NCBI RefSeq assembly: GCF_009903685.1
Contig: NZ_JAAABI010000003.1
Coordinates: 255,135-319,134 of the forward strand
DNA from: Flagellimonas ochracea
Lineage (GTDB): Bacteria; Bacteroidota; Bacteroidia; Flavobacteriales; Flavobacteriaceae
DNA length: 64,000 bases
Reading direction: 5' to 3'
Part shown: in pieces, positions 57,614-60,362 of the stretch
Numbering within the stretch: position 1 is the stretch's first letter
Layout of the letters: each line of letters opens with the position of its first letter
Made by a program: the position numbers and the translations under genes
Notes under the pieces: generated by a model
The model's input: the letters and a program-made list of their open reading frames with translations, nothing else
Told to the model about the DNA's origin: nothing
The model's database searches: none

Positions 57614-58798
57614 CTAGAGTCTGAAATAATCAATATAATTCCGTAAATCTTTATCTCCACGTCCAGAAAGGTTGACGACCACTACATCATCCTTTTCAAA
57701 TTGCCGTTCCTCAAAAATGGCAAAAGCATGGGAGGTTTCAATGGCCGGTATGATGCCCTCCAATTGGCACAGCGCTAAACCTGCTGTCATGGCTTTGTCA
57801 TCCGTAATGGAGATAAATTCTCCACGCCCCGATTTGAAAAGATGCGCGTGCATGGGTCCTACTCCTGGATAGTCCAACCCTGCTGAAATGGAATAAGGTT
57901 CAGTTATCTGACCATCATCTGTTTGCATGAGCAAGGTTTTGCTGCCATGGATGATGCCCACCTTGCCCAAAGCTGAAGTTGCGGCGCTTTCACCAGAGTT
58001 GATGCCCTTTCCGGCAGCCTCTACCGCAATGATTCCCACATCGGGAACATCCAAATAGTGATAATAGGCTCCCGCTGCATTGCTTCCTCCACCGACACAG
58101 GCTACTACATAATCAGGGTTTTCACGTCCTTCTTTTTCCTTTAGTTGCCATTTGATCTCTTCAGAAATCACGGATTGAAAACGAGCGACCATATCGGGAT
58201 AAGGATGTGGTCCGACCACGGAACCAATGATATAATGCGTATCCACCGGATTGTTGATCCAATCCCGGATGGCCTCGTTCGTGGCATCTTTTAAGGTCCT
58301 GCTTCCGGATAGTGCAGGACGGACTTCCGTACCCAGCATTTTCATGCGAGCCACATTGGGAGCCTGTCTGGCAATGTCAATTTCGCCCATGTACACCACA
58401 CATTCGATGCCCATAAGGGCACACACAGTGGCGGTGGCCACTCCGTGTTGACCTGCACCGGTCTCTGCAATGATTCGGTTTTTGCCCAATTTCTTGGCCA
58501 TTAAAATCTGTCCGATGGTGTTGTTGACTTTATGCGCTCCTGTGTGGCAAAGGTCTTCACGCTTAAGGTAAATCTTGGTATTGTATTTTTCGGACAAACG
58601 TTTGGCAAAATAGAGTGGGGTAGGCCGACCCACATAGTCCTTCAACAGTTGGTGAAACTCTTTCTGAAAGGAAGGTTCTTCCATGATGCGGAGGTAGTTT
58701 TGCCTTAGTTCCTCGCAATTGGGATAGAGCATTTCAGGGATAAAAGCCCCACCAAATTCTCCATAGTAACCTCTTTCATCCGCGTGATATGTTTTCAT
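57614..58798 (-). CDS. trpB: Tryptophan synthase beta subunit
   Basis: 394 residues, TrpB1 type. PLP lysine K90 in [13 protein letters not shown], phosphate loop [15 protein letters not shown], and ETSHAFAI near the C-terminus. It joins indole and serine to tryptophan. Start codon overlaps the trpF stop (ATGA). Confidence 0.97.
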
Positions 58799-59514
58799 GG
58801 TTTGTCAGTTTTTGGTTGATGTTTTTCAATGAGCAATTTTTTAAAAATCTTCAATTTTTCGATGTTTTTCAGACCGGGTTCAGTTTCAAAACGACTGTTG
58901 ACATCGATGGCATAACAATATTTTGAAGCGGGACTCTCCAAAAAGGATTGTAGTTTTTCCGTTTCCTCCAGACCAATACCACCACTCAAGAAATAGGGCT
59001 TGTTGGAGGGATAGTTTTTTAAAATTTTCCAATCAAAAGTATACCCGTTTCCTCCCGGAAGTTTTCCTTTGGTGTCAAAAAGGAAATAGTTGCAGACTTC
59101 TTCGTAATCCTTCAAAATAGAAAAATCAAAATCATCCTTGATTGAGAATACTTTGATGATGTCCAAGTCTGACAGGTCGAGCGGAGTCGAGACCTTATTC
59201 CTATCGGACGCTTTCTTTTTTCTCAACTGCGCTCGAAATGACAGAAAGATGTCTTTAAGTTTGCCACAATATTCAGCACTTTCCTTTCCATGAAGTTGAA
59301 CCGCATGCAATTGGTGTTCATTTACTTTCTTAATGACGTCTTCTGCGGATGCATCAACAAAAACCCCAACTTTTTTGATGGAACTTGACAGTTGGGGAAT
59401 TTCTCCATCAAAATAGCGTGAGGAAGGCCCCCAAAAGATAAATCCCAAATAGTTTGGTTGTAGCTGGGCCACTTCCTTGGGATTGTATTTCATACCACAA
59501 ACCTTGAGCTTCAT
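58795..59514 (-). CDS. trpF: Phosphoribosylanthranilate isomerase with repeat-encoded insert
   Basis: 239 residues, about 25 longer than usual. The TIM-barrel pieces are normal: [20 protein letters not shown] with catalytic Cys6, [34 protein letters not shown] with the catalytic Asp, and [10 protein letters not shown]. Residues 91-116 ([20 protein letters not shown] and then PLDLSD) are foreign to the family and coincide exactly with a 76-bp palindromic element. The insert lies in the loop after the helix following the third strand, away from the active-site ends, and the frame is kept, so the enzyme is probably functional. Overlaps trpC by four bases. Confidence 0.93.
59169..59244. repeat. 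76-bp palindromic element inserted in frame within trpF
   Basis: Two 24-bp arms (59169-59192 and 59221-59244) are inverted repeats with five mismatches, around a 28-bp centre. The arms carry the words GTCATTTCGAGCGCAGTTGAG and their partner, similar to dispersed GTCATTTCGA..-type repeats in flavobacterial intergenic regions. The copy in trpF reads through as 26 codons without a stop. Confidence 0.8.
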
Positions 59515-60296
59515 GATTCCAGGGCTTTTATGAATTCGGCAGCATACTTTCCGGGATTTTCTGTCTTCATGAAGTTTTCTCCAATCAGGAATCCTTGGTA
59601 GCCGAATTGCCTTAGTTCTTTTATGGCATCCACATTGCTAATACCACTTTCCGACACTTTCACAAAATCATTGGGAATTTTAGCTGCTAATTCCTTACTG
59701 GTATCCAAACTGACCTCAAAAGTCTTCAGATTTCGGTTGTTCACCCCTAACATGTCCAAGCTGGGCATTATTGATTTTTGGAGCTCTTCTTCGTCATGCA
59801 CTTCAAGCAATACATCCAATCCAAGACTTTTGGCAAATTCTGATAGTGTTTTTATTTCCTTCCCGGATAAAATGGCAGCAATCAACAAGATGACGTCAGC
59901 ACCATAAGCTTTGGCCTCCAAGATTTGATATTCATCGATTACGAACTCTTTACGAAGCAGAGGAATGTTTGCCGATGCCCGTGCCAATATCAAATCATCC
60001 AAAGAGCCTCCGAAATACTTTCCATCGGTCAGCACGGACATACCGCAAGCCCCTGCAGTTTCATAGCCTTCGGCCACATCCTGAACATTTAAACTTTGAT
60101 TGATGACCGATTTGGAAGGGGAGCGTCGTTTGTGTTCGGCAATTATTCCGGTAGTGCTATTTTGCAATGCATCGGCCAACGAAATGGGTGTTCGTTCCAA
60201 TAACCCGGATTTCTCCAATTGGGAAACGGGAATAATCGATTTTTTCAAATCTACCTCTTTACATTTATCAGCTACTATTTTTTCTAGAATATTCAT
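59511..60296 (-). CDS. trpC: Indole-3-glycerol-phosphate synthase
   Basis: 261 residues from the ATG at 60296 (MNILEKIVADKCKEVDLKKS); an ATG at 60308 would add four. Motifs: IIAEHKRRSPSKSVIN with the catalytic Glu/Lys, LRKEFVIDEYQILEAKAYGA, LGVNNRNLKTFEVSLDTS, VSESGIS. Unlike in enterobacteria it is not fused to trpF. Confidence 0.97.
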   Translation of the reverse strand: MNILEKIVADKCKEVDLKKSIIPVSQLEKSGLLERTPISLADALQNSTTGIIAEHKRRSPSKSVINQSLNVQDVAEGYETAGACGMSVLTDGKYFGGSLDDLILARASANIPLLRKEFVIDEYQILEAKAYGADVILLIAAILSGKEIKTLSEFAKSLGLDVLLEVHDEEELQKSIMPSLDMLGVNNRNLKTFEVSLDTSKELAAKIPNDFVKVSESGISNVDAIKELRQFGYQGFLIGENFMKTENPGKYAAEFIKALES

Positions 60297-60318
60297 TTTT
60301 TTCATCAATGCATTAAGG

Positions 60319-60362
60319 TGTCATTGCTTTTGTTGGATTCCCGCGTTCACAGAAATGACAGC
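60319..60362. repeat. Degenerate palindromic repeat in the trpD-trpC junction
   Basis: The stretch runs from TGTCATTG to AATGACAG, with an inner TGGATTCCCGCG that matches the right half of the 61379-61450 element (TGGATTCCTGC...AATGACAA). The left half is decayed. It lies between the trpD stop and the trpC start. Confidence 0.55.

Follow-up and report, generated by a model that had tools for sequence, protein, structure and literature searches.

How does a palindromic DNA repeat come to lie inside the gene for a core enzyme, and what keeps it there? The question is raised by trpF of Flagellimonas ochracea, found in the window analysed here, a stretch of 64,000 nucleotides from a genome of 3.57 Mb.

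The trpF insert and its repeat unit

The trpF gene (58795..59514, minus strand) is an ORF for a 239-aa phosphoribosylanthranilate isomerase, assigned to PF00697 by profile match, whose nearest named relatives are Allomuricauda/Flagellimonas proteins. Its neighbours, trpB downstream (57614..58798, minus strand) and trpC upstream (59511..60308, minus strand), were named from sequence and used for a tree. No near match to trpF was found in phage records. A 76-bp element recognised by its inverted-repeat ends (59169..59244) overlaps TrpF codons 91-116. The initial annotation had described it as a palindromic repeat that lengthens the enzyme in frame. Direct comparison confirmed 24-bp inverted repeats with exactly five mismatches, and among the 63,924 spans of 76 bp in the window this one alone has ends that good. 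The reading frame through the element is open. Counted from Q-L-H-G to the next strand, the TrpF loop has 48 residues here versus 20-26 in the shortest relatives, which points to about 24 extra residues in the alpha3-beta4 loop (helix 3 to strand 4) and bears out the lengthening.

An AlphaFold2 model of TrpF (49 sequences; pLDDT 89, pTM 0.86) predicts that the insert extends helix 80-103 and forms the loop leading to strand 118-125, a part modelled less confidently (pLDDT block means over the loop of 82, 66 and 77). The best 14 Foldseek matches are TrpF or TrpC-TrpF structures, with a TM by target of 0.78-0.82 for 1dl3_B, 1nsj and 1v5x_A, and family-invariant residues are present in the window protein. 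The alpha-to-beta loops of such barrels generally sit away from the active site. A surface-loop placement had been proposed; the model predicts a loop extension with lower pLDDT at this point.

A BLAST search of the genome with a 91-bp query gave 36 places at E<=10, own copy included, and was full length solely at trpF. The repeated unit is smaller: a hairpin of about 26 nt, two of which make up the element head to head. Searched as GTCANNTCGAGCGNAGTCGAGA, this single unit, which we call A, has 26 genome copies at up to 2 mismatches, and the reversed control pattern has 0. Thus the element's unit does occur elsewhere in the genome, in-gene copies included, as expected of the dispersed repeat that the initial annotation had suspected. 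Unit 1 (59171..59192, plus strand; genome pattern match C33:314305-314326) is the second arm in mRNA sense and has the stem GG/CC. Unit 2 (59221..59242, minus strand; C33:314355-314376) is the first arm and has the stem TT/AA. The spacer between the two hairpins is 59193..59220. Part of the mismatch between the element ends comes from each hairpin having its own stem.

Each A unit consists of a GTCA head, two to three outer stem pairs, a TCGA/TCGA stem, a GA bulge and a GCGNAG loop. Alignment of the own-genome copies gives a stem of 3+4 pairs, with the outermost pair holding in 15/26, a 2-nt GA bulge and a 6-nt loop; the consensus head is TGTCA, with CGTCA in some units. Dispersed units have many different stems. 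Five clear head-to-head pairs account for 10 of the 26, and the partners of other units may be degenerate. By reading 1.5 kb either side of each unit, and taking the short ORFs (70-151 aa) that overlap some of them as spurious, we placed 8 of the 26 within six coding genes: trpF (2), metH (2), mfd, prmC, metG and an RND transporter. Pfam supports the MetH, MetG and Mfd domains and an AcrB family for the transporter; the PrmC identity rests on methyltransferase domains and our own reading.

Searched with the pattern of a second family, B, which relatives hold within trpF, the own genome contains one B-type dimer of two units (G000 C22:938340-938419; L159, L160). The window itself contains another, different palindrome-like sequence in the trpD-trpC spacer (60319-60361); a loose pattern for it gave 5 matches over the genome at 3 mismatches, itself included, with 1 for the control, and matches elsewhere were weak.

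Occupancy of the TrpF loop and of other genes

TrpF was found in 42 of the 59 genomes searched, and 30 same-genus loci were read (own genome included in both); four more genus loci and G383 complete a set of 35 Flagellimonas/Allomuricauda genomes. In 30 of the 35, the TrpF loop holds REP-type sequence of several unrelated families (A 15, B 11, E 2, D 1, A+B 1), and four of the five unlabelled loops are short. At this site the A dimer encodes LSFRAQSR...VSTALDLT and the unrelated B dimer RHAELVSASH...KQVRGD; families D and E occupy others, and L052 carries B and A in tandem. The annotation had expected relatives to lack residues 91-116. Some do have short loops; ten species, own included, share the A dimer, and others carry unrelated repeats. 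The same insert in other genera would have spoken against a repeat origin. What other genera show at this site is a different repeat, a short loop, or A units of which most are read in another frame.

A wider search covered 395 genomes, own included, of which 379 gave a match; 28 new loci came from it and 80 further regions were taken. The 210 loci taken into the extraction were reduced to 182 rows (16 yielded no site, and four, L120, L121, L122 and L128, were dropped with 8 duplicates; L073/L284 is still a duplicate). Recognised repeat families are present in 83 of 181 distinct TrpFs: B 29, A 26, C 15, D 5, E 5, A+B 2 and F 1. This is a non-random sample, since best matches to an insert-bearing query ranked first and part of them were fetched. 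Family labels come from patterns, which alone match 81 of the 182 rows, with 29 loci set by hand after reading their loops; L059, L183 and L269 are labelled without a pattern match, L274 is unlabelled despite a weak one, and a loop that holds two families is entered under one label or as A+B.

Each family pattern was seen in less than 1% of simply shuffled loops, a chance rate measured on trpF loops only. Across 79 trp loci (424 kb), 50 pattern matches fall in the loop (6,954 bases) versus 46 in the remaining ~417 kb, where one place can match two patterns. Twelve of the outside matches were read in context: 8 lie in spacers or in DNA without an ORF, two of these 8 within a frame that stays open ahead of the trpF start, and the 4 in coding DNA carry 1-2 mismatches and were taken as chance. 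Individual loops also contain composite arrangements: a 21-bp insert nested within the A unit of L041, a REP unit of one family nested in another family in L217 and L162, and three tandem D units (CTGAGCGCAGTCGAAG) in L268. Additionally, in some Flavobacteriaceae a single long ORF appears to join TrpF to the gene that follows; L071 and L073 (3001-4848) have a 616-aa ORF, probably TrpF-TrpB, and several other genomes have open frames of 613-639 aa.

We compared relatives at four of the five other genes that hold A units. REP-type sequence is present at the mfd site in 23/30 genus loci (families A, B, D), at the metG site in 16/30 (A, B, D, E), at the metH site in 12/30 (almost only A) and at the prmC site in 18 of the 27 loci read of 30 (A, D), own genome included in each case. 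trpF is one of several genes with multi-family repeat occupancy at shared sites. The picture of an isolated insertion is not supported: ten species share the A dimer, unrelated repeats take its place in others, and four further genes have repeats at shared sites.

Turnover of repeat families

A quick 62-row tree, built from TrpB, TrpC and loop-free TrpF, requires at least 22 changes of family label. On the 182-row TrpF tree (FastTree) the minimum is 52 changes versus 74-82 in 30 label shuffles; the labels are therefore partly inherited. Among the 83 occupied TrpFs the same tree requires 31 changes of type. Three sister pairs differ in family: L032/L043 (A/B), L036/L044 (A/E) and L040/L053 (A/B), with SH-aLRT values of 100, 100 and 99. 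In L032/L043 most of the coding DNA displayed has 85-98% identity, and its sole strongly divergent stretch is the loop (about 105 vs 81 bp). The pattern is similar in L034/L042, which belong to one clade and are not a resolved pair. L054/L055, both of family B, are alike throughout.

In places the flanks are less clean. Three of the four A-vs-other pairs (L032/L043, L040/L053 and L034/L042) also disagree in the trpC-trpF spacer; in L040/L053, moreover, similarity is reduced to the left of the loop, and gaps are frequent in a stretch further to the right. The L036/L044 alignment, elsewhere about 88-100% alike per 60 bp, diverges strongly over some 120 bp to the right of the loop and then matches at 359 of the next 360 bp, which looks like a recombination mosaic, as recombination would give. 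The genomes of L032/L043 (G008/G035) also differ in family at mfd (A dimer vs D dimer), with well-matching flanks, and at prmC (A vs D), where three of the first four 30-bp windows right of the site are 67-77% alike. Their metH loops are alike, and both hold A in metG, one with a nested insert.

The reading that we favour as probable is one of colonisation and replacement: a few permissive loops take up REPs of several unrelated families, which supplant each other there, and what is kept is the hairpin sequence and not the peptide. The permissive loops would be those of TrpF, Mfd, PrmC, MetG and, mostly with A, MetH, and unrelated REP families would have entered them repeatedly. New families would arrive by REP insertion, in any frame that stays open. 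Cassettes already established may also cross from one species to another, through homologous recombination of short tracts bounded by conserved flanks. Resident hairpins would then be held by constraint on nucleic acid, DNA or mRNA, with the peptide as a passive passenger. This reading builds on same-site occupancy by several families, on the family differences between sister species, on covariation within hairpins and on silent-site conservation in the arms above that of the flanks.

Alternatively, the diversity of the loop could reflect interspecies exchange of a few old allelic cassettes by homologous recombination, with little or no new insertion. The A alleles fit such a history. The trpF A set comprises ten full-length alleles from ten species, own included (L041, L052 and single-arm alleles were left out). 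TT/AA is present in arm 1 of 10/10 and GG/CC in arm 2 of 9/10 (L032 differs), and spacer length and position are identical in all ten. Because these alleles share nearly all stems and the spacer length and dispersed units vary in stem, the comparison speaks for descent over fresh copies; the ten probably go back to one insertion, with old spacers. They sit in species interleaved on the tree with those carrying B alleles. Likewise, 19 of 27 B plus-units begin at the same loop position across genera, and the L036/L044 flank resembles a mosaic. However, other genera hold A units in other frames and positions, and the nested units (L217, L162, L041) together with the several families in the loop indicate that fresh insertion is needed too. 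We regard exchange as a full explanation as unlikely, and retain it as one route within the favoured reading of colonisation and replacement.

Silent sites, hairpin pairing and known repeats

In the ten trpF A alleles, 182/207 and 239/265 fourfold sites are identical in the two arms (0.88, 0.90), versus 241/605 and 273/673 in the flanking codons (0.40-0.41). At the nucleotide level the arms show identities of 0.94 and 0.90 and the spacer 0.588; at the amino-acid level the values are 0.95 and 0.81 for the arms and 0.338 for the spacer, the spacer values resting on nine codons measured. Even in the spacer, the codon is identical in 116/137 cases of an agreeing residue (flanks 0.54), indicating that part of the silent-site effect may be base composition.

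The same comparison was made for other families and genes. Fourfold identity in mfd is 74/84 (0.88) in the B insert vs 0.44 in the left and 0.55 in the right flank (7 alleles), 46/54 (0.85) in the first D arm vs 0.39 and 0.56 (5 alleles), and 30/36 (0.83) in antisense A vs 0.49 and 0.54 (4 alleles). The prmC insert gives 159/179 (0.89) vs 0.44 and 0.41 (8 alleles), and metG A gives 35/57 (0.61) vs 152/391 (0.39) and 101/235 (0.43; 6 alleles). Silent-site conservation is clear in mfd and prmC and weak in metG. Within trpF, the B arms give 0.66 (137/208) and 0.89 vs flanks of 0.42-0.43, and the C arms 0.68 (87/128) and 1.00 vs 0.41-0.49, so that the first arm of each exceeds its flanks only moderately; the C spacer is identical at 17/17 fourfold sites. 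All of these groups were picked by resemblance to a family, which inflates conservation, a bias limited in the trpF genus set, where 5/35 loops are unlabelled and four of these are short.

Hairpin pairing was assayed by counting compensatory cells. Own-genome A units have 28, at two outer stem positions, versus 11.1 +- 2.6 in shuffles, and B units within trpF loops have 51 versus 18.0 +- 3.8, with 0/500 shuffles as high in either case. Two of the five covariation measures, pairs changed on both sides and further pair types, were not above shuffles in the A and B tests. Folded as RNA, the whole window insert gives a good structure (z -4.0 on the coding strand and -2.7 on the other), unlike its two arms taken singly (z 0.57 and -0.24). 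We nevertheless set a long cross-arm hairpin aside and treat each single hairpin as the unit, given the covariation of the stems and the many B dimers whose two stems are unlike. Wobble counts in mRNA sense (10 G-U vs 18 A-C in B units, 9 vs 3 in A units) do not separate RNA from DNA.

These data bear on the possibility that the repeats are selfish neutral filler, inserting everywhere and surviving in genes only in tolerant loops, with hairpins that have no function and reuse of sites as a filter effect. The predicted position in the alpha3-beta4 connection, at lower pLDDT within a confident model, suits this explanation, as do the acceptance of unrelated families at the TrpF loop and an A consensus that is free of internal stops except at one end of one antisense frame. 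Passengers, however, should decay like the spacer, and the A arms are instead 88-90% identical at fourfold sites vs 40-41% in the flanks, with nucleotide identities (0.90-0.94) far from the spacer's 0.588; mfd and prmC agree. We therefore consider neutral filler rather improbable. The annotation's notion of a tolerated peptide is similarly incomplete, in that conservation at silent sites is higher in the hairpins than in the gene around them. Selection on the encoded peptides for a protein-level function, such as an interaction surface on TrpF, is very hard to credit: arm amino acids are conserved among A alleles, but synonymous sites are conserved as well, unrelated peptides replace one another in sister species, and A units are translated in all three sense frames and in antisense, which argues against one selected peptide.

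Beyond the favoured reading, in which repeat families colonise and replace one another and hairpins are kept, a stronger version is conceivable but doubtful: in these flavobacteria certain loops of core enzymes may serve as permanent docking sites where functional DNA hairpins are interchangeable. Selection would act on the hairpins at the DNA or RNA level, species would exchange them as cassettes, and the peptide would be an unavoidable by-product. Both readings lose a little of our confidence through the imperfect flanks and the codon agreement in the spacer.

Several known systems resemble these repeats. Rickettsia palindromic elements (RPE) are dispersed palindromes in frame inside genes, and the window element is likewise one. 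RPE belong to another phylum; in the present case, unrelated families share a loop in sister species and silent sites are conserved. RAYT-mobilised GTAG REPs/BIMEs are dispersed hairpin units in inverted pairs, as A units are. In contrast, A units have a GTCA head, and the own genome has no match to the Y1 transposase profile (Y1_Tnp, PF01797), which matches in 10 of 60 genus genomes (own included in the 60). The single MITE feature compared, terminal inverted repeats, is present in the 76-bp element as its 24-bp ends with 5 mismatches.

The closest likeness is to CGTC-tagged REPs. Their description (Di Nocera et al. 2013, PMC3733652) gives them an unpaired CGTC/TGTC head, a short stem, mostly head-to-head dimers and no dedicated transposase. 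It counts Bacteroidetes among their phyla, equates RPE-6 and RPE-4 with CGTC-1 and CGTC-4, and places some units inside genes as inserts of 20-30 aa, with recB of two Xanthomonas occupied at about the same site and different sites otherwise. B units are alike in the CGTCAT or TGTCAT head of the units read, the stem starting after the head, and in 8 pairs with a 5-nt loop (89.0% of 328 cells paired, where the pattern fixes part of the stem). A units share the unpaired CGTC/TGTC head (consensus TGTCA) and depart, with their GA bulge and 6-nt loop, from the 8-9-bp stem and 4-5-nt loop given there. Relative to that account, the present case adds five genes with shared sites, of which four have taken up several families, and silent-site constraint. 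Our literature search, which covered few subscription papers, returned nothing on same-site multi-family REP exchange in Bacteroidetes, on many-family reuse of fixed coding loops or on silent-site constraint. REPs inside genes are already known, and what looks new is their repeated exchange at fixed loops together with silent-site constraint.

Since REPs occur at high occupancy in fixed gene loops across a bacterial family, protein length and sequence at these positions are set by repeat turnover, and indel-rich loops in flavobacterial alignments may be repeat-derived. The silent sites of coding copies also provide a direct test of nucleic-acid function of REP hairpins, a question to which intergenic copies, having no synonymous sites as a yardstick, are poorly suited.

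Lastly, a G+C-rich insert of about 21 bp was observed nested in the apical loop of A or D units, a repeat within a repeat. The cases are L041 (trpF), L338 (mfd), L365 (prmC), and L378 and L398 (metG), and the frame is kept in all five.
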